DNA of 64,000 nt. It comes from Desulfobacula sp. GTDB taxonomy: Bacteria > Desulfobacterota > Desulfobacteria > Desulfobacterales > Desulfobacteraceae. Shown piece by piece: positions 10,819-23,779 of this stretch. The translations under genes and the position numbers were made by a program. Under the pieces are notes generated by a model. That model made no database searches. It was given only the letters and a program-made list of their open reading frames with translations, and was not told the DNA's origin. Each line of letters begins with the position of its first letter. The first letter of the stretch is position 1. The stretch lies in the NCBI RefSeq assembly GCF_014237455.1, contig NZ_JABZFL010000030.1, positions 1 through 64,000 on the forward strand. Reading direction: 5' to 3'.

Positions 10819-11502
10819 ATGGGCAAGAATGTTGTGGAAAAAATTGATGATCAGGTGGAAATCAAGACCCTTCTGATGAGTGTGTCTGACAAATCAGGCC
10901 TGGAGTCCTTTATTCCGGGACTGGTTGAGTTGAACCCGGAAATTTTGATTCTGTCAACCGGCGGGACATATGGTAAAATAAAAGAGATCCTGGGGGATAA
11001 AGCAGATACGTGTTTAAAACAGGTGTCAGACTATACGGGTCAGCCTGAAACCCAGGGAGGACTTGTCAAAACCCTTGATTTTAAAATTTATCTGGGTCTG
11101 TTGACAGAAACCTATAATGATGCCCACCAGGAGGATTTAAAAAGAACCGCTGCCCGTGCCATTGATATGGTGGTGGTGAATCTTTATCCCTTTAGTGAAA
11201 CCATTGCCAGACAAGGGGTGAGTTTGGAAGATGCCAGGGGAAATATTGATATCGGCGGCCCGACCATGATCCGGGCATCTGCCAAAAACTTTATCCGGGT
11301 GGCATCGGTGGTTGATCCTTCCACCTATCCTTTGATTCTGGAAAAACTTAAGGCCAATAACGGATCTTTATCCTTTGAGGACAGGTTTGGGCTTGCCCAA
11401 AAAGCATTTGAGCACACAGCAGTCTATGATAAAACCATTGCCGGTTATCTTGCCGAAAAATCGATAAATGATGTTAAATCATGCTATAAATCAGGAGAAT
11501 AA
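10819..11502 (+). CDS. purH: IMP cyclohydrolase domain of PurH, encoded separately
   Basis: 227 residues covering only the N-terminal, methylglyoxal-synthase-like domain of PurH, which closes FAICAR to IMP. Motifs: 'SVSDKSGLESFIPGL', 'LSTGGTYGKI', 'VVNLYPF', 'NIDIGGPTMIRASAKN'. In most bacteria this is fused to AICAR transformylase in a protein of roughly 520-535 residues; here a stop codon at 11500-11502 separates the two, with the second gene starting three bases later. The split looks genuine, since both halves have clean ends and the downstream gene has its own ribosome site. Confidence 0.9.
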   Translation: MGKNVVEKIDDQVEIKTLLMSVSDKSGLESFIPGLVELNPEILILSTGGTYGKIKEILGDKADTCLKQVSDYTGQPETQGGLVKTLDFKIYLGLLTETYNDAHQEDLKRTAARAIDMVVVNLYPFSETIARQGVSLEDARGNIDIGGPTMIRASAKNFIRVASVVDPSTYPLILEKLKANNGSLSFEDRFGLAQKAFEHTAVYDKTIAGYLAEKSINDVKSCYKSGE

Positions 11503-11505
11503 GCC

Positions 11506-12756
11506 ATGTCCAAAGATCTCAAAGCGATGTACAAAACAATTATGGATGATCATTTTACCCCGCAGATGGAAGTGTCTTTTGTTGATGGAGATAAGCGACA
11601 GACCCTTTTTTATGAAAAAGTTTCATGGGTGATTGACGGGGTGAACAAGGGATTAAGGTATGGTGAAAATCCAGGGCAGGAAGCAGCGCTTTACCGGCTT
11701 GTCAACGGCAACCTTTCCCTTGGCGATGCCCAGACCATTACCCCGGGTAAATACCTGGTGTCTGATATTGAATTACTGCAATCAGGCAAGCATCCGGGAA
11801 AAACTAACCTTACCGATGCGGACAATGCCTTGAACATCTTAAGATATTTTACCGATACCCCGTGCGCCGTGATTGTCAAACATAATAATCCTTGCGGGGC
11901 TGCAAGGGCGCAAAGCCTTGAAGAGGCCTATCACAAAGCTTATATGGCGGACCGTGTGGCAGCCTTTGGCGGTTGTATTGCACTGAATAAGGCCGTTGAT
12001 AAGGCCACGGCACAGGCCATCGCCAGCCAGTATGCAGAAGTTGTGGTGGCACCGGAATTTGAAGACGGGGTTATCGATATATTGGGTGCCAGGAAAAATT
12101 TACGGGTAATCCGGATTAATAATATTGATACGCTTCAAACCTTTATCGGTGAACGGGTGATTGATTTTAAAACCCTGATGGACGGTGGGATGGTGGCTCA
12201 ATGGTCCTTTGTTCCCCAAACCCTGTCTGAGAAAGATCTGGTTGTGGCGGTAACCGAGTATAAAGGAGAATCATACAAGATCAACCGAGAGCCTGCAAAA
12301 CAGGAGTATGAAGATATGCTGTTCGGATGGCTGGTGGAATCCGGCATTACCTCCAATTCAGTGATTTATGTGAAAGACAATGTCACCGTAGGGATCGGAA
12401 CGGGTGAGCAGGACAGGGTAGGGGTTGCAGAAATTGCCGTAGACAAGGCCTATAGAAAACTTGCTGACAGGTACTGCTTTGAAAGACATGAGATCTCCTT
12501 TGCCGATCTGACGGATGCTGATAAGAGAGAGCAAATTGAAAATGATGTTAAAGAAGTCAAGGGCGGTCTTATCGGATCTGCCATGGTGTCTGATGCATTT
12601 TTCCCTTTCAGGGACGGTATTGACGTGGGACTTGCGCAGGGGGTGAAAGCCGTGGTTCAGCCTGGCGGGTCTATGAACGATTATCAGTCTGTTGAAGCAT
12701 GTAATGAGAATGATGCAACAATGGTTTATACTGGGCAGAGAAGTTTTAAACACTAA
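11506..12756 (+). CDS. purH: AICAR formyltransferase, separate from IMP cyclohydrolase
   Basis: 416 residues of the AICAR transformylase type, converting AICAR and 10-formyl-tetrahydrofolate to FAICAR. The catalytic Lys-His pair is in 'VIVKHNNPCGAA'; 'LRYGENPGQEA' and the C-terminal 'AVVQPGGSMND' and 'MVYTGQRSFKH' are also diagnostic. It is about 100 residues longer than the corresponding domain of fused PurH because of extra sequence in the middle (about residues 230-330). CAGGAG lies eight bases upstream of the ATG, inside the end of the cyclohydrolase gene, so the two are translationally coupled. Confidence 0.9.
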   Translation: MSKDLKAMYKTIMDDHFTPQMEVSFVDGDKRQTLFYEKVSWVIDGVNKGLRYGENPGQEAALYRLVNGNLSLGDAQTITPGKYLVSDIELLQSGKHPGKTNLTDADNALNILRYFTDTPCAVIVKHNNPCGAARAQSLEEAYHKAYMADRVAAFGGCIALNKAVDKATAQAIASQYAEVVVAPEFEDGVIDILGARKNLRVIRINNIDTLQTFIGERVIDFKTLMDGGMVAQWSFVPQTLSEKDLVVAVTEYKGESYKINREPAKQEYEDMLFGWLVESGITSNSVIYVKDNVTVGIGTGEQDRVGVAEIAVDKAYRKLADRYCFERHEISFADLTDADKREQIENDVKEVKGGLIGSAMVSDAFFPFRDGIDVGLAQGVKAVVQPGGSMNDYQSVEACNENDATMVYTGQRSFKH

Positions 12757-16597: not shown

Positions 16598-18688
16598 TCA
16601 ATTCGCTTTTGCTATTGGAAAATCAATATCTGGATTATAACAAATCCTACAGCAGTTCAGGCATCTTTCAGCTTCTTTATGGGCCGCATCCTCCGGCAGA
16701 ACAAGATCAACCTCAATCATTGAATCAAGTCTTTGATCAACAGGAATTTCCGGCATTTTTGCCCGGGCGGTTTTTTTGATACCATCCACTTTCGTGAAAA
16801 TAGATTCAGGAATTCGTTTTTGCTGTAAAGAATCCTTTACCGGTTCGACCGGTTCTCCTTTTAGGAACAGGTCAATGGATCGGGCGGCACGCCGTCCACT
16901 GCCAATGGCATCAACAACAAGGGCAGGTCCTGTGGCAGAATCTCCTCCTGTAAAAATATAGGGGATGGAAGCCTGCAGGATTGCCGGGTCATTGTCAATG
17001 GTATTCCATCTTGTCAGTTCCAGCTCAGTCATCCTTTTATGAGGGTCTTGTTCTTTAAAAGAGGCATCCGGAGATTGACCAATGGCCGAGATCACCATTT
17101 CCACATCAAGAAGGGTTTCGGAACCTTCAATAGGTACTGGTCGACGTCTACCGCTGGCATCGGGTTCACCCAGTTCCATTTTAAGGTATTCGAGCTGGGT
17201 CGCCTTGCCGTTTTCATCACCAATGACTTTAGTGGGGGCAGCCAGGAAAACAAATTCAACGCCTTCTTCTTCAGATGCAACAATTTCAACCTCATTGGCC
17301 GGCATCTCATTTCGGGTTCTTCTGTAAACGATGTATACCTTTTCAAGACCAAGCCGTAAAAGAGTTCTTACACAGTCAATTGCGCTATTCCCGCCGCCGA
17401 CTACAGCAGCAGTTTTCCCCAGTTTTATTTTTTCACCACTGGAAAATCTCTGGAGAAAATCAATTCCTTTAAAACAGCCGTCAAGATCCTCTCCTTCAAT
17501 GCCAAGGGAATAATCCTCCCAGGCACCCACTCCAAGGAACACTGCTTCATAGCCCGAGGCCATCAATGATCCTAATCCAAAGTCAACACCAAATCTAACA
17601 TTGCAAAAATCCTTGATTCCAAGGTCAAGAATTCCTTGGATTTCCCAATCCAGAACCTTTTTGGGGAGCCTGTACTCTGGTATGCCATATCTGATAATGC
17701 CGCCAAGCTTTGGCATGGCCTCAAAGATATCCACCTGATGTCCGATTCTTCGAAGGAAGAATGCACAGGAAAGCCCGGCCGGTCCGCCACCGATCACGGC
17801 CACCTTTTTGCCCGTATCCGGGGCGCATTTAATGGGAATTCTGGAACCTGAATTCATTTCATAATCAGCAACAAATCGTTTAAGCTGGTTAATGGAAACC
17901 GCCTCATCTTCAATTCCTCTTCTGCACTCATCTTCACAAGGATGGGGACAGACCCTGCCACAGGCAAGGGGCAAAGGATTTCTCATGCGGATGGTCTGGA
18001 CAGCTTCCTTATATTTGCCTTCCCTGAGCTGGTTGATATATCTGGGAATATTAATTTCAGCAGGACAGGTCTGGGCACAGGGTGCCAGAGCATCCTGTGC
18101 CTGGTTAAACTTCATGAGTTGTTCAGAAAGGGTTTTTACCACAATAATATCTTTTGGGCATGCCTGCTGGCAAGCACCGCAGCCCACGCATTTGTCATCA
18201 TCCACAACAGGATAGCCGTTGGCCCCAAGTTTAAGAGCATCAAACTGGCAGGCCTTTACGCAATCACCAAGACCAATACATCCAACACCACAAACCCGTT
18301 TCCCGCCAAACACAAGTGCCATGGCCTTGCAGGAGGAAATTCCCATATAGTGGTATTTATTATCGGCTCGATTTCCGCCTTCACACATATTATAGGAGAA
18401 CAGGCTTTCAGCAGCGCCTGCATCAACTCCCATTATTTTTGCAACTTCTTCCACGCCTTCCTTGCTTGATATAACACATACAGAAGGTGGGGCTAAACCA
18501 TTTACAACGGCTTCTGCAGCAGAAGAACATCCTGCATATCCACAACCACCGCAGTTTGCAGCGGCAAGGTTATTTTCCACCTGTGCGATTCTCGGATCTT
18601 CATATACATAAAAGACCTTGGATGAAAGGCTGAGCACAATACCGCATACCGCACCGATGCCTAACATAAACAATAAAGCTGGGATCAT
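16598..18688 (-). CDS. rnfB: RnfB fused to a GltD-like NAD(P)H oxidoreductase
   Basis: 696 residues, more than twice a normal RnfB. Residues 1-195 are RnfB: a membrane helix at about 4-25, the Fe-S domain with Cys46, Cys49, Cys54 ('NCGGCGYAGC') and a later cysteine near 71, then two [4Fe-4S] ferredoxin motifs ending 'CVGCGACQQACP'. Residues about 203-640 are a glutamate synthase small-subunit-like flavoprotein: N-terminal cysteine clusters ('CAQTCP', 'CGRVCPHPCEDECRRG'), an FAD site 'VAVIGGGPAGLSC' and an NADPH-type site 'AAVVGGGNSAIDC'. The C-terminus adds 'CLNCCRIC'. It is the last gene of the rnf operon. I infer that ferredoxin electrons reaching RnfB could be passed to NAD(P)H, or the reverse, within this one chain. 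Confidence 0.9.
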   Translation of the reverse strand: MIPALLFMLGIGAVCGIVLSLSSKVFYVYEDPRIAQVENNLAAANCGGCGYAGCSSAAEAVVNGLAPPSVCVISSKEGVEEVAKIMGVDAGAAESLFSYNMCEGGNRADNKYHYMGISSCKAMALVFGGKRVCGVGCIGLGDCVKACQFDALKLGANGYPVVDDDKCVGCGACQQACPKDIIVVKTLSEQLMKFNQAQDALAPCAQTCPAEINIPRYINQLREGKYKEAVQTIRMRNPLPLACGRVCPHPCEDECRRGIEDEAVSINQLKRFVADYEMNSGSRIPIKCAPDTGKKVAVIGGGPAGLSCAFFLRRIGHQVDIFEAMPKLGGIIRYGIPEYRLPKKVLDWEIQGILDLGIKDFCNVRFGVDFGLGSLMASGYEAVFLGVGAWEDYSLGIEGEDLDGCFKGIDFLQRFSSGEKIKLGKTAAVVGGGNSAIDCVRTLLRLGLEKVYIVYRRTRNEMPANEVEIVASEEEGVEFVFLAAPTKVIGDENGKATQLEYLKMELGEPDASGRRRPVPIEGSETLLDVEMVISAIGQSPDASFKEQDPHKRMTELELTRWNTIDNDPAILQASIPYIFTGGDSATGPALVVDAIGSGRRAARSIDLFLKGEPVEPVKDSLQQKRIPESIFTKVDGIKKTARAKMPEIPVDQRLDSMIEVDLVLPEDAAHKEAERCLNCCRICYNPDIDFPIAKAN

Positions 18689-18725: not shown

Positions 18726-19298
18726 TTAAACCATTCCTTTAAAGGACATAAATGTCAACGCAATCACACCTGCTGTAACAAGAGCGATAGACGTATCCTG
18801 TAATGGTTTGGGTACTCTGGCAAGATTGATTCTCTCCCGAACACCGGCAAACAAGATCAGGGCCAGCCCGAAACCCACTGCATAGGAAAAGGAGGAAACA
18901 AGGGCACCTAAAAATGAGTATTCATTACTGATGTTTAAAAGACATGCCCCCATTACTGCACAGTTAGTTGTGATTAACGGCAGGAAAATACCAAGTCCTG
19001 CATAGAGTCCGGGAATGCTTTTTTTCAAAAACATTTCAACAAACTGGACAAGGGAAGCAATGACCAGAATAAATGAGACGGTCCTTAAATATTCCACGTC
19101 AAGTGCTTTTAACAAGTATGTGTCCACTATCCAGGTGATCATCCCTGCCATGACCAGAACAAAAATAACGGCCATTGCCATACCCACAGCAGTCTCCATC
19201 TTTTTCGATGTGCCGAGGAACGGGCAGTTGCCAAGAAACTGGGCAAGGAGAATATTGTTAATGAAGACACCTGCGATGAAGATTTCAAAATATTCCAT
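18726..19298 (-). CDS. rnfA: Rnf complex subunit RnfA
   Basis: 190 residues with six predicted membrane helices, the family's normal length. Diagnostic segments: 'INNILLAQFLGNCPFLG' near the N-terminus, containing the cysteine region linked to the intramembrane Fe-S site shared with RnfE, and 'ITTNCAVMGACLL' in the middle. RnfA and RnfE form the membrane core for ion transport coupled to ferredoxin:NAD electron flow. It lies between rnfE (12-base gap) and the rnfB fusion (37-base gap). Confidence 0.95.
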   Translation of the reverse strand: MEYFEIFIAGVFINNILLAQFLGNCPFLGTSKKMETAVGMAMAVIFVLVMAGMITWIVDTYLLKALDVEYLRTVSFILVIASLVQFVEMFLKKSIPGLYAGLGIFLPLITTNCAVMGACLLNISNEYSFLGALVSSFSYAVGFGLALILFAGVRERINLARVPKPLQDTSIALVTAGVIALTFMSFKGMV

Positions 19299-19310: not shown

Positions 19311-19928
19311 TTATTTTTCCCCAATAAGATTCATGATTGCCAGCATCAGGCCAAGCGCCACAAATGCACCGGGTGCTTCGACCATAAATGTGAAAGGATT
19401 GAAGCCGGGAAAGCTGGTTGCCATATCAAAAACAGAGTTACCACCCCATATAGTGATGGTGCCTGCACCTAAAATTTCCCTAACCGCACCAAGGGCAGCC
19501 AGAGACAATGTAAACCCAATGCCGATGCCCATACCATCCGCAACTGACATGACAGGACTGTTCTTGCTGGCAAATGCTTCTGCCCGACCAAGAACAATGC
19601 AGTTTACAACGATCAAAGGGATAAATATACCCAGTTTAAGAAATAATGGATATGTATATGCCTGCATTACGAGCTCCACAATAGTAACAAATGTGGCGAT
19701 GATTACAATATAACAGGCGATTCTGACTTTTGACGGTATCACGTTTCTAAGAAGGGATACCAACAGGTTTGAGAAAACAAGAACAAAGGTGGTCGCAATA
19801 CCCATGCCAAGTCCGTTTTCAACTGTTTTGGTTACTGCAAGAACCGGGCAAAGCCCTAAAACAAGCCTGAAAGGAGGTATTTCAGCCCATAGTCCTTTTG
19901 TAAATTCTTTTGCCAAGGATTGTGCCAT
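19311..19928 (-). CDS. rnfE: Rnf complex subunit RnfE
   Basis: 205 residues, six membrane helices, paralogous to RnfA. Motifs: 'ELPPFRLVLGLCPVLAVT'-type N-terminus (here 'IPPFRLVLGLCPVLAVTK') and 'FIPLIVVNCIVLGRAEAFA', whose cysteines match the intramembrane cluster ligands described for Rnf/Nqr. It follows rnfG by 23 bases in the rnfCDGEA order. Confidence 0.94.
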   Translation of the reverse strand: MAQSLAKEFTKGLWAEIPPFRLVLGLCPVLAVTKTVENGLGMGIATTFVLVFSNLLVSLLRNVIPSKVRIACYIVIIATFVTIVELVMQAYTYPLFLKLGIFIPLIVVNCIVLGRAEAFASKNSPVMSVADGMGIGIGFTLSLAALGAVREILGAGTITIWGGNSVFDMATSFPGFNPFTFMVEAPGAFVALGLMLAIMNLIGEK

Positions 19929-19951: not shown

Positions 19952-20536
19952 TTATTTAATCTGTTTTAAGATTTCAGGTTTGAGTTTTTTATACAGATCC
20001 TGTGCCTGGATGGCTGCCAAAGTTACAGCCTGTGAGGTGATAGTGGCACCGGACATTGCATCGATTGATCCACCCTGACCTTTTAATGCCAGATTTGCAT
20101 CCATGGTTTTTTCTTCAAATTGAGAAACAAATTCAGGGTCGTCCTTGGCCCTTGCACCCAGACCAGGAGTTTCAGAATGTGTTGTCACACGGGCGGCAAC
20201 AATCTGGTCGCTGTCAAGGTCGATACCAACCATTAGACCTACATCACCGCCATAACCGCCTTTGCCTTTTGTTTGAAACGCAACAGCCTTAGATCCGTCT
20301 TCAAGTTTGGCAGGGAAGAATTTATATTTTATTCCCTCATGCTCAATCTCAAATTTTTCCTTGGCAGGGTCATTGGATACTTTTCCGAAAATATCATTCA
20401 TGGCAGGTGCCAGCTGGAATTTAAAAATTTGTTGTTCGATCCTGTCTTCAGTACCGGATTTTACAGAGGCAAGCAGCCCTCCTGAAACAGCTGTCAAGAC
20501 TGTTAAAACTATAATCATACTCATCATTTCACGCAT
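19952..20536 (-). CDS. rnfG: Rnf complex subunit RnfG (covalent FMN subunit)
   Basis: 194 residues: one N-terminal membrane helix (about 5-25) and a periplasmic FMN-binding domain. The flavin-attachment motif SGAT is intact in 'DAMSGATITSQAV' near residue 165, so the threonine for phosphoester-linked FMN is present. 'THSETPGLGARA' is also typical. It overlaps rnfD by 8 bases, consistent with coupled translation. Confidence 0.93.
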   Translation of the reverse strand: MREMMSMIIVLTVLTAVSGGLLASVKSGTEDRIEQQIFKFQLAPAMNDIFGKVSNDPAKEKFEIEHEGIKYKFFPAKLEDGSKAVAFQTKGKGGYGGDVGLMVGIDLDSDQIVAARVTTHSETPGLGARAKDDPEFVSQFEEKTMDANLALKGQGGSIDAMSGATITSQAVTLAAIQAQDLYKKLKPEILKQIK

Positions 20537-21497
20537 TGTTCACACCCTTTCCCAAAGCTTTTGGTCTTATAATGTCAATGAGGGGGTTTACAACATTTAA
20601 TAAGAGGATTGCCAATACAGTACCATCTGCATAGGCACCGATGTTTCTCATCAGGATGATCATTACTGCAGCAGAAAAACCGTAAATGAGCATGGGAATT
20701 CTGTTTACAGGAGAGGATGAATTCTCTGTGGCAAGAAAGAATGCCCCGATCAGGGTATACCCTGAAAATAGATGGATCACAGGGCCTGCATAGGTGTCCG
20801 GGTTTGCCATGCTGAACGCCAAGGCAGTTACAATGATGCCCACAATAAAAGACACTGGAATTTCCCACCGGATATATCCTCTTAAAATCAGGTAGATACC
20901 ACCGATAATCAGGCCAAGCCCAAAGGTAGAACCAATGGCCCCCACCTGTTTGCCCATAATAAGGTCGCTCATGGGAAATACGCCTGCAACCTCATAGGCG
21001 CCCTGGAATTTAAGGGCTGCCAGCGGTGCAAGGGCGGTAAAATCGAATTCATAATTGACATAGGCAGCATCGAAATCGAAAAAGACTTTCCAGGAAAGCA
21101 TTAAGAATGCCATTCCCACAAGGGCCGGGTTAAACGGGTTTGCCCCGATACCGCCAAAAATCATTTTGCCGATAATCACTGCTACAAAAGTCCCGGTAAC
21201 GACAAGCCACCATGGGGATGTGGCCGGAAGCATCATGCCAAAAATAAGCCCGATGACTGCGGAATCCAGGTCACCGATAGAGATCTTTTTTTTGGATATC
21301 ACATTCATGATAAGTTCCCAGACCATAGCACTGGAAAGAGATAGTGCAAGTACACCAAAGGCAGGTGCACCAAACTGAATAATACCAAAAATGACCGCCG
21401 GAAGGGTGGCAATCATTATATTCAGGTTCATTTGAAAAAGACTGTCTCCGTCATGCCAGAAAGGTGCATGGGATACTGTTAATTTGTTATTAGTCAT
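20529..21497 (-). CDS. rnfD: Rnf complex subunit RnfD
   Basis: 322 residues with about eight to ten membrane helices. The start at 21497 is preferred because GGAGA lies upstream and the protein then begins 'MTNNKLTVSHAPFWHDGD' like other RnfD proteins; it overlaps the end of rnfC by 8 bases. Family segments include 'GGIGANPFNPALVG'. Where RnfD proteins normally carry a [ST]GATPL-type flavin-attachment motif, this one reads 'FTALAPLAALK' (residues 153-163), so the acceptor threonine appears to be missing or moved. Function: membrane electron carrier of the Rnf complex. Confidence 0.93.
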   Translation of the reverse strand: MTNNKLTVSHAPFWHDGDSLFQMNLNIMIATLPAVIFGIIQFGAPAFGVLALSLSSAMVWELIMNVISKKKISIGDLDSAVIGLIFGMMLPATSPWWLVVTGTFVAVIIGKMIFGGIGANPFNPALVGMAFLMLSWKVFFDFDAAYVNYEFDFTALAPLAALKFQGAYEVAGVFPMSDLIMGKQVGAIGSTFGLGLIIGGIYLILRGYIRWEIPVSFIVGIIVTALAFSMANPDTYAGPVIHLFSGYTLIGAFFLATENSSSPVNRIPMLIYGFSAAVMIILMRNIGAYADGTVLAILLLNVVNPLIDIIRPKALGKGVNNA

Positions 21498-22773
21498 TGG
21501 CAGTCTCCAAAGCTCTAAGTTTAAAAAGCTCATGTTTTCCTAATCTGATATACTGGTATAAAGGTATCCTTGCGGTACAGGTATAAGCGCAAAGACCACA
21601 TTCAATACAGGACTCAAGATCATATTTATCGGCTGCCTCTTCATACTGGTCAGCCTCAAGGTATCGTACAAGAATATTCACAGGAACATTTGCAGGACAG
21701 ATCCGGATACAGTTGCCGCAATTAACGCAAGGATTGTCTGATAATTCCGGAATAATATCTCTGTCCTGAATCATCACCGTATCCATATCCGGCTGGACAG
21801 GATGGTGAGGGGTGTATGTAGCAAATCCCTTCATGGGCCCACCGATGACAATTCTGTCCTGTTCGTTGATATGAATATTGAAGGCATTGAAAATTTTGCG
21901 TAAAGGTGTCCCAATGGTGGCCTTGATCCTGTATTGAGTTCCCTGTTTTCCAATAACCGTCAGAATTTTTTCAAACCCTGCAGATTTTGTTTTGTATGCG
22001 TTGGCTAAAGAAACCACAGCCTCGGCGCTGATAAAACTAACACCCATGTCTTCCGGGGCTTTCCCTGCAGGAAGTATCATGCTTAAATGGTCTTTTAAAA
22101 TCATTGCCGGTAAATTGGACGGATATTCCATTGAGGTTTTGAATACCTGAATCGAATCAAACTTTCCTTGAACATTTAAGCTTTCCGGAACCATGATACA
22201 TAGTTTTGGGACATGGGTTATCTTTTTTAAAACTTTTGCTCCCTCTTTTATCTCATCCAAAAACTTTAAGGTTATATACTGATTGGTTGTTGATAAAAGA
22301 TCCATATCTGAACAGGTAATGACAATGGTATTAATTTTAACGTCATCACTGGCAAGAATTTTTAGCGGCGGTGCCCCCGGCAGTGTCCTGAAGTATTCAT
22401 CAGCAGAGGCAATATCATCTTTTAAATCGTATGTTATCGAATTTGTCTGGGTTGTCTGGCCCTGATTACTTTTGATAACAAGATAGGTGGATGTGCTGCC
22501 AAAATCATCCGAATAAGTGTCAATAGCGCTGATGGTTCCTGCAACGGGAGAAATTGTATACTCTGTACTTTGATTGTAAAGGCGTAACTTTTCTCCCTTT
22601 TCAACCGCGTCCCCTTTTTTTATTAAAGCCTGTCTTGTGTTGTCAATGGGCTCATTTAATAATAAAGTAAGGTTGGACGGGATGGGTATTGGCTCCGACT
22701 CTTTAGGATCCGGTTCCACAAGATCATAGCTGAGTCTTGGTTTGGTTAACGTGAAAAAAGATCGTTTAATCAT
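21490..22773 (-). CDS. rnfC: Rnf complex subunit RnfC
   Basis: 427 residues, the short form lacking long C-terminal repeats. The N-terminal half carries a barrel-sandwich segment ('KKGDAVEKGEKLRLYN') and the middle an NADH/FMN-type domain ('IVIGGPMKGFA'). Two [4Fe-4S] motifs close it: 'CVNCGNCIRICP' and 'CIECGLCAYTC'. RnfC is the peripheral NAD-interacting subunit. It is the first rnf gene, 74 bases after the tetraheme cytochrome gene. Confidence 0.94.
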   Translation of the reverse strand: MIKRSFFTLTKPRLSYDLVEPDPKESEPIPIPSNLTLLLNEPIDNTRQALIKKGDAVEKGEKLRLYNQSTEYTISPVAGTISAIDTYSDDFGSTSTYLVIKSNQGQTTQTNSITYDLKDDIASADEYFRTLPGAPPLKILASDDVKINTIVITCSDMDLLSTTNQYITLKFLDEIKEGAKVLKKITHVPKLCIMVPESLNVQGKFDSIQVFKTSMEYPSNLPAMILKDHLSMILPAGKAPEDMGVSFISAEAVVSLANAYKTKSAGFEKILTVIGKQGTQYRIKATIGTPLRKIFNAFNIHINEQDRIVIGGPMKGFATYTPHHPVQPDMDTVMIQDRDIIPELSDNPCVNCGNCIRICPANVPVNILVRYLEADQYEEAADKYDLESCIECGLCAYTCTARIPLYQYIRLGKHELFKLRALETAND

Positions 22774-22847: not shown

Positions 22848-23213
22848 CTATAATGAATGACACGTATTACATTCTACCGGACCTGCGCCAACATCTTCAT
22901 GGCATCCCTGGCACTGAGCATGAAATGCATCAGTTCTTGATGGCAAGTCTTCATCACCTGTGTCTTCATGACACTCACTGCAGTTGTAGGTTTCATCATC
23001 TTCAATGTTATGATGGCAGTCCAGGCAATCATCTGTATAATCGCCTGTGTGTACTGAATGGGTGAATAAAACTTTGCCGGCTTTGTTCTGAAACATCATG
23101 CGTACTGGTTCTTCAGGTGCAGGGGGAGTAAAAGAGGCATAGCATATAATTCCTGTGATCAAAAATATGATCATAATTAATAGTGCTACTTTTAGGTCTC
23201 GTTGTGATGTCAT
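22848..23213 (-). CDS. Tetraheme c-type cytochrome (c3/c7-like), Rnf-associated
   Basis: 121 residues. An N-terminal hydrophobic stretch at about 9-30 acts as signal or anchor, so the rest is periplasmic. Four CXXCH heme motifs are present: CLDCH, CSECH, CQGCH and CNTCH, each near extra histidines that could be distal ligands. The position directly upstream of rnfC matches the multiheme cytochromes reported beside rnf genes in Desulfovibrio and Methanosarcina, where they are thought to exchange electrons with RnfG. I infer a link between Rnf and the periplasmic cytochrome pool. Confidence 0.9.
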   Translation of the reverse strand: MTSQRDLKVALLIMIIFLITGIICYASFTPPAPEEPVRMMFQNKAGKVLFTHSVHTGDYTDDCLDCHHNIEDDETYNCSECHEDTGDEDLPSRTDAFHAQCQGCHEDVGAGPVECNTCHSL

Positions 23214-23317: not shown

Positions 23318-23779
23318 TTAGGGTGTGGTGCAATCGGCTGGGATAATTTGTGGTTTTTTTCTGACAAGGAAAGGCTTATAGGCCTCTTTTTTTGAAAGGG
23401 AGTTGTTTTTTTTCCGGATGATATAAAAGGAGAATCCAAAAAATAAAAATCCTGAAATCATGGAAGCAAAGGAGGGGTCCATTTGAAGAGAAGGTGCAAG
23501 ACTGTTTCCGATCACTGCACCGATGATCAGTAAAATAATGGGGAATACATATAAAAAAAATGTTAAAAAAAGCATGGGTTTGGTTTCAAGTCCAATGACC
23601 ACATGATCCCCTTTTTCAACATTGAGTGTGTTTTTAACATCAACAGTTATTTCTTTTTGATTATTGGCTGTTCCGCAGCTTTTTTGGGAAGAGCAGGACT
23701 CACAGGCACCGGATCTGGTTGTTTTTATCCAGGCAACAGACTGGTTTGCTTTGGTTACAATTCCGTTTTCAGTGATCAT
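23318..23779 (-). CDS. rseC: RseC/MucC family membrane protein
   Basis: 153 residues. The N-terminal cytoplasmic part has a cysteine cluster (CESC-x3-KSC, about residues 26-35) typical of RseC, followed by two membrane helices at about 75-122 and a charged tail. RseC proteins are associated with Rnf/Rsx complexes (SoxR-reducing system) and are thought to deliver a cofactor or electrons. It stands 104 bases upstream of the cytochrome gene, at the head of the rnf cluster. Confidence 0.85.
   Translation of the reverse strand: MITENGIVTKANQSVAWIKTTRSGACESCSSQKSCGTANNQKEITVDVKNTLNVEKGDHVVIGLETKPMLFLTFFLYVFPIILLIIGAVIGNSLAPSLQMDPSFASMISGFLFFGFSFYIIRKKNNSLSKKEAYKPFLVRKKPQIIPADCTTP

Follow-up and report, generated by a model that had tools for sequence, protein, structure and literature searches.

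The DNA analyzed here is a stretch of 64,000 nucleotides (hereafter the window), in which a cluster of genes lies on one strand in the order RseC-cyt-C-D-G-E-A-B (Table 1). All six subunit genes rnfABCDEG are there: the products of rnfA, rnfB, rnfD, rnfE and rnfG score above their NCBIfam cut-offs, and rnfC was assigned from a match below the cut-off together with its fold. The listed start of the rnfD open reading frame (ORF) overlaps rnfC, and the real start may be further in. RnfG reads SGATITS, which corresponds to the SGAT motif as described in PMC4023990. Elsewhere in the window, two adjoining ORFs (10819-12756) resemble the halves of PurH, with a stop between them (named by eye).

Table 1. 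Features of the rnf cluster, from its head to the end of the rnfB fusion; residue numbers refer to the respective protein.
Feature	Coordinates	Strand	Basis or remark
RseC/MucC-like gene, head of cluster	23318..23779	-	PF04246, 1.6e-33
Tetraheme c3-type cytochrome gene, upstream of rnfC	22848..23213	-	4 CxxCH; Cytochrom_CIII, 4e-13
rnfC without FMN/NAD motifs	21490..22773	-	Alignments, domain searches; RnfC fold
Missing FMN loop site in rnfC, residues about 128-140	22354..22392	-	Window reads TLPGAPPLKI
Two [4Fe-4S] motifs of rnfC, retained, residues 349-399	21577..21729	-	
rnfD	20529..21533	-	TIGR01946 above cut-off
rnfG	19952..20536	-	RnfG_DVU2794 model above cut-off; SGAT motif for covalent FMN
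rnfE	19311..19928	-	TIGR01948 above cut-off
rnfA	18726..19298	-	TIGR01943 above cut-off
Fusion: RnfB part, residues 1-190	18119..18688	-	Membrane helix, FdI cluster motif, one ferredoxin dicluster
Fusion: junction and Fer4_20-type Fe-S domain, residues 191-290	17819..18118	-	
Fusion: GltD/NfnL-type FAD and NAD(P) domain, residues 291-620	16829..17818	-	Domain matches, fold, dN/dS
Fusion: FAD motif GGGPAG, residues 300-305	17774..17791	-	
Fusion: NADP-type site GGGNSAIDC...YRRTRNEMPAN, residues 431-465	17294..17398	-	
Fusion: C-terminal cysteine motif RCLNCCRIC region, residues 676-683	16640..16663	-	

The last rnf gene of the cluster (16598-18688, minus strand) is a single uninterrupted frame of 696 codons whose product begins as RnfB and continues as a GltD/NfnL-type flavoprotein. 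Residues 4-198 match the rnfB model TIGR01944 of NCBIfam (74.0 bits, cut-off 68.7), GltD-type models, among them PRK12771 (496 bits, below its cut-off of 516), cover residues 194-684, and the Pfam domains Fer4_20 and Pyr_redox_2 were found above their cut-offs. The FAD motif, the NADP-type motif, the Fer4_20 cysteines and a C-terminal RCLNCCRIC are all present, and together with the domain matches they bear out the first-pass annotation, which had RnfB fused to a GltD-type protein that carries FAD and NAD(P) motifs and cysteine clusters of its own. Rnf complexes that bear this fusion have been published before, from Desulfobacteraceae, under the names “Tol2-type” Rnf or “Rnf2”, and the window is a member of this group. 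The YRRTRNEMPA of the GltD module aligns closely with the motif of NADP(H)-bound NfnI of Pyrococcus furiosus; from this likeness the module would most likely prefer NADP over NAD, in line with the NADPH role that the first-pass annotation had proposed.

The predicted single-chain model of the fusion (mean pLDDT of 76.2) matches NfnABC, StnABC, NfnL, GltD and DPD, and the solved proteins nearest to the module, in sequence as in fold, belong as subunits to the bifurcating NfnABC, StnABC and NfnI. This kinship speaks for an NfnL-like bifurcation, in which the GltD FAD would split the electrons of NADPH and send one to ferredoxin and one to the Rnf chain. We consider such a reaction improbable, given that non-bifurcating enzymes, namely DPD and the GltD of glutamate synthase, have the same fold, and that no NfnS-type partner was recognized among the ORFs of the cluster, which were read by eye.

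A match across the RnfB-GltD junction at 56% identity or more was found in 47 of 58 related genomes, the window's own included (hand count among the matches listed), and a 48th genome of the same set (G003) yields a fragment that ends short of the junction. Some of the junction-spanning matches include a stop; in the one inspected (L010), it is the normal terminal stop and the alignment runs past it. Across 395 genomes drawn from the phylum, with the best five candidates per genome scored, 43 have a match that covers RnfB and the first part of GltD jointly (hand count). These counts indicate that the fusion is real and conserved, extends past the order and is absent from some genomes. For copies with an intact NADP motif (type I; type II copies have a degenerate one), three pairs gave a dN/dS over residues 291-620 of 0.042, 0.052 and 0.071, values close to or lower than those of the RnfB part in the same pairs (0.111, 0.062 and 0.102); synonymous sites were saturated in a fourth pair. 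Such low values indicate that the type I flavin domain is under purifying selection. Recurrence of the junction in relatives, established by the genome survey that the first-pass annotation had proposed, and purifying selection on the flavin domain together rule out an assembly or frameshift artefact. Because the GltD tree contained three outside rows only, it lends slight support to a single origin of the fusion, and the RnfB tree has long branches and unsettled bootstrap values. Two proteins of about 600 residues (L078, 8970-10757; L080, 8898-10697) match the ferredoxin and GltD parts of the fusion and are without its N-terminal RnfB part, and their genomes have an unfused RnfB.

The second departure from canonical Rnf concerns RnfC, which we aligned with RnfC of Azotobacter, Clostridium tetanomorphum, Acetobacterium woodii and relatives. 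Two motifs that the motif-intact RnfC proteins of the alignment retain, the FMN loop GxxGxGGAxFP and ECEP, are both missing from the window RnfC; from knowledge of the family rather than from a ligand list, we take these two motifs to form the FMN/NADH site. Pfam searches returned no match to the Complex1_51K and SLBB domains in the window RnfC, which scores 169 bits against the rnfC model (cut-off 246). An intact but divergent FMN site in Rnf2 RnfC was also considered and ruled out by the alignment and by the negative outcome of a search for near-miss motifs. RnfC has a NuoF-like fold (PMC9588780), and the predicted single-chain model of the window protein (mean pLDDT of 84.6) resembles the RnfC fold best and NqrA next. 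That the fold is retained is the point in favor of the earlier view, in which NAD reduction stays with RnfC and a second nucleotide site comes in with the GltD module; set against the lost FMN loop and ECEP motif, the missing 51K and SLBB matches and the low score, this view has become very improbable. Likewise, the statement that all other Rnf subunits are present stands as far as genes are concerned and fails for the flavin/NAD motifs of RnfC, and the bifurcation between NADH and NADPH within the complex that had been envisaged would need a second nucleotide site, of which none was seen. The window's genome also carries an nqr-like set, whose NqrA-like subunit (contig C5, L170, 7604-9028) has two RnfC-like cysteine motifs at its C-terminal end and, judged by its sequence, looks intermediate between RnfC and NqrA. 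The NqrA-like subunits of L178 and L179 likewise keep two such motifs.

Does the state of RnfC go with that of RnfB? In a strict recount, 135 distinct RnfC proteins besides that of the window were sorted by the RnfB in reach, at loci found with RnfB, RnfC and RnfG queries, 80 of which were retrieved with the motif-less RnfC as query and are motif-less by choice, with RnfB unselected. Motif-less RnfC was accompanied by a fused RnfB with an intact NADP motif in 52 cases, by one with a degenerate NADP motif in 10, by a fused but cut or broken RnfB in 2 and by an unfused RnfB in 13, whereas motif-intact RnfC was accompanied by an unfused RnfB in 19 cases and by a fused one in none. No RnfB was in reach of 34 motif-less and 3 motif-intact RnfC, and for 2 motif-less RnfC it was cut by the end of the sequence. 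With the window included, all 65 fused RnfB in reach of a RnfC are thus paired with a motif-less RnfC, which does not support the first-pass reading of the module as an addition rather than a replacement; one locus (L111) was left out of the fused count because its RnfB lies 5.2 kb off on the opposite strand. At three loci (L135, L140 and L151), a motif-intact and a motif-less cluster stand back to back. In L151, RnfB is unfused in the motif-intact cluster and fused in the motif-less one; at L135 and L140, the locus ends before the RnfB of the motif-intact cluster is reached.

A two-way link between the fusion and the loss of the RnfC motifs is ruled out by the 13 motif-less clusters with an unfused RnfB. 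An unfused RnfB of 266-270 residues with a second ferredoxin domain stands beside motif-less RnfC at L032, L073-L075, L077, L079, L081, L118, L121, L122 and L128. One branch (support 100/99) of the 66-row RnfD tree separates 46 motif-less rows from 19 motif-intact ones; this split indicates that the loss of the RnfC site was one old event, wider than the fusion. Since the compared clusters are related and motif loss is a single change on this tree, the counts given above are not independent observations. NqrB of the window's genome falls among the motif-intact Rnf on a long branch, and an arrangement in which the 19 motif-intact rows are held together without NqrB was not rejected (p-AU of 0.27). 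Tentatively, the flavin site would have been lost independently in Nqr and in Rnf2.

Most motif-less clusters are further marked by a cytochrome gene. A multiheme cytochrome gene, defined as one ORF with at least three CxxCH at most 2.5 kb upstream of RnfC, accompanies 98 of 106 motif-less RnfC and none of 22 motif-intact RnfC; 7 other motif-less RnfC had too little sequence to be counted. The eight motif-less clusters without such a gene are L063, L064, L066, L070, L072, L075, L183 and L228. The best match to RnfG_DVU2794 among 198 genomes (G194, 282.7 bits) lies in a cluster that starts with a cytochrome gene of ten CxxCH, in which RnfC is motif-less and RnfB unfused. A similar RnfC occurs in 30 of 59 genomes of the same family, and all 14 loci inspected combine a motif-less RnfC with a multiheme ORF (3 to 10 CxxCH across the rows listed, and 4 to 10 where the ORF is upstream of RnfC). 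We call these clusters Desulfovibrio-like because of the name of the RnfG_DVU2794 model and of the gene order dhcA-rnfCDGEABF reported for Desulfovibrio (PMC4841214). Our literature searches found no earlier printed report of the association of motif-less clusters with cytochrome genes, or of a single lineage of motif-less clusters that includes the Desulfovibrio-like ones.

The Desulfovibrio-type Rnf is treated in the literature available to us as a ferredoxin:NAD oxidoreductase. Attempts with Desulfovibrio vesicles to couple an ion gradient to the reduction of NAD+ by ferredoxin are described as unsuccessful (PMC4841214), and Rnf has been proposed for Desulfovibrio to connect NAD(P)H or ferredoxin with the pool of cytochromes (PMC4287179). 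In D. alaskensis, rnf is needed and the decaheme gene dhcA is mostly dispensable or unimportant for fitness, which led its authors to place dhcA outside Rnf electron transport under the conditions used.

At the other end of the complex, the window RnfB aligns with residues 8-195 of the 274-residue RnfB of C. tetanomorphum, whose second ferredoxin domain (206-261) has no counterpart ahead of the GltD part. The RnfB half of the fusion stops where clostridial and acetogen RnfB (C. tetanomorphum, A. woodii) continue into further ferredoxin domains, and the unfused RnfB of a motif-less cluster (L032) aligns over residues 5-263 with residues 5-263 of C. tetanomorphum RnfB. By these alignments, the GltD module occupies the place of the second ferredoxin domain of clostridial RnfB, the region near whose outermost clusters ferredoxin is thought to dock in C. 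tetanomorphum (PMC9588780). The replacement, and the fact that RnfC keeps both [4Fe-4S] sites, unlike the relic NqrA without redox cofactors (PMC11889175), are compatible with a complex of reversed polarity, in which NADPH would react at RnfB and ferredoxin at the RnfC clusters, in the cleft vacated by FMN and NAD; the complex would still be a ferredoxin/NAD(P) pump with its ends exchanged. We find this unlikely. It leaves the cytochrome gene unexplained, no docking of ferredoxin at RnfC is known, and the argument from the missing domain is weakened by Azotobacter RnfB, which has 174 residues and one dicluster and is also without a second ferredoxin domain, so that absence of this domain is no proof of lost ferredoxin binding.

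The window's genome contains a second full-length RnfB-GltD copy (G000:C94:3288-5342, L040), which has 38% identity to the first and a degenerate NADP site and adjoins a formate dehydrogenase-like gene (named by eye). In the GltD tree, 15 of 18 rows with a degenerate NADP motif form one clade (support 100/100), and a type II copy occurs in at least 40 of the 58 related genomes, as counted by hand from identity ranges, the NADP site having been read in the fetched loci. We found no earlier printed report of this second paralogue. The own genome combines two RnfB-GltD copies with one Rnf core, its second RnfD-like match belonging to the nqr-like set. In G001 and G018 (97% and 78% complete), the window's next gene after rnfB, presumably MltG-like, comes straight after rnfA, at 8 and about 150 bases, respectively, and the cluster of G038 (98% complete) is without rnfB; all three genomes have type II only among the matches listed. 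In G402, G239 and G384, type II is located inside the cluster and type I elsewhere. From one core with two copies, from the genomes with type II only and from those with type II in the cluster, we infer that types I and II are RnfB subunits that serve one core. Orphan type II genes at C94 (L040), L028 and L177 have neighbors that resemble formate dehydrogenase or NuoF genes, an assignment made by eye or from weak RnfC matches; the products of these neighbors are possible electron partners of the orphans.

In the one type II pair compared, dN/dS is 0.16 for the FAD/NADP domain and 0.05 and 0.03 for the Fe-S parts. The type II module seems likely, on sequence grounds, to be non-catalytic, with a role as an Fe-S wire or in assembly. 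The same could be supposed of the GltD module in the complex at large, as a longer Fe-S wire or an assembly aid, given that type II lacks the NADP motifs, that its FAD/NADP domain is less constrained than its Fe-S parts in that pair and that it is apparently the sole RnfB beside the core in three genomes, among the matches listed. Type I, on the contrary, retains the FAD and NADP motifs in a strongly constrained domain, which makes this generalization rather improbable.

With the end step of RnfC missing and a nucleotide module at the first step, the simplest reading is that NAD(P)H is exchanged at RnfB. We therefore favor, with a probability of roughly 0.6, an Rnf2 that would be an Rnf-type ion pump whose pyridine-nucleotide site has been relocated from RnfC to RnfB. 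The FAD of the GltD module would oxidize NAD(P)H, most likely NADPH (or reduce NADP+), and electrons would pass through the Fe-S clusters of the module to RnfB and on to the membrane core of RnfA/E and RnfG, where Na+ or H+ would be moved. At the far end, they would exit or enter via a partner other than NAD. The single partner that we would name first, at somewhat less than even odds, is a periplasmic cytochrome reached through RnfG; otherwise a one-electron carrier could react at the RnfC clusters. The type II protein would be an alternative input subunit of the same core, and a bypass of the pump, as had also been suggested, may occur.

A broader proposal, which we advance with distinctly less confidence, is that Rnf2 could stand next to Rnf and Nqr as a third type of pump, one that couples ion transport to electron transfer between NAD(P)H and cytochrome c (or another non-NAD acceptor). 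It would have lost the flavin site of RnfC and gained a nucleotide-flavin module at the input, in parallel to Nqr and through a module of another kind, and it would have two interchangeable input subunits, of which one can use NADP and the other cannot; the Desulfovibrio-type Rnf, being of the same motif-less lineage, would not reduce NAD at RnfC either. If the nucleotide site has moved, energy schemes of marine sulfate reducers that include Rnf2 as a ferredoxin/NADH pump are wrong, and those of Desulfovibrio may be wrong too. The lineage, the cytochrome and the paralogue narrow the question of the Rnf2 reaction to a form that can be checked in the laboratory.

Several known systems share parts of this organization. 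The family of NfnL, NfnABC, StnABC, GltD and DPD has the FAD site, the NADP motif and the Fer4_20 domain in common with the window module, which differs in being fused to RnfB with no NfnS-type gene seen in the cluster. Like the window, the canonical ferredoxin:NAD+ Rnf of A. woodii and C. tetanomorphum has six subunits, the RnfC fold, two RnfC clusters and the SGAT motif of RnfG; unlike it, it has the FMN/NAD motifs in RnfC and further ferredoxin domains of RnfB in place of GltD, along a U-shaped path described as ferredoxin-RnfB-RnfA/E-RnfG-RnfD-RnfC-NAD (PMC11889175). The Rnf of Methanosarcina acetivorans, likened here by description and not by RnfC sequence, also has a multiheme cytochrome gene, there co-transcribed with rnf, and by the published account can use neither NAD nor NADP; the portions of that account available to us do not mention a GltD fusion (PMC4023990). 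In Na+-NQR, the RnfC counterpart NqrA is without cofactors and the NADH flavin domain is at the input side, in NqrF (PMC11889175). The differences are that NqrF, a FNR-like protein with a [2Fe-2S] cluster, is not in the window cluster, which has RnfB-GltD instead, and that NqrA keeps no clusters. Term counts on the accessible text of a 2025 review of Rnf and Nqr (PMC12174285) return neither “Desulfo” nor “NADPH”, and in the portions available of PMC5109826 and PMC11887813 neither a second paralogue, nor a lineage shared with Desulfovibrio-like clusters, nor the exchange of a ferredoxin domain for GltD is mentioned. These last two sources describe the system closest to ours. Desulfococcus multivorans is a sulfate reducer that forms Rnf1 as well as Rnf2. 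The D. multivorans genome paper reports a “different type of Rnf”, first found in D. toluolica Tol2, with a RnfB of about 700 residues that has NAD-binding sites and a RnfC without the NADH-oxidoreductase and ligand-binding domains, and its authors leave the mode of action to verification (PMC5109826); the 2025 paper that names Rnf2 places it in the core genome of Desulfobacteraceae and finds it abundant and constitutive in six strains (PMC11887813). The window agrees with these descriptions in its RnfB of 696 residues with a nucleotide-binding domain, in its RnfC without 51K and SLBB domains and in the cytochrome gene of its cluster.
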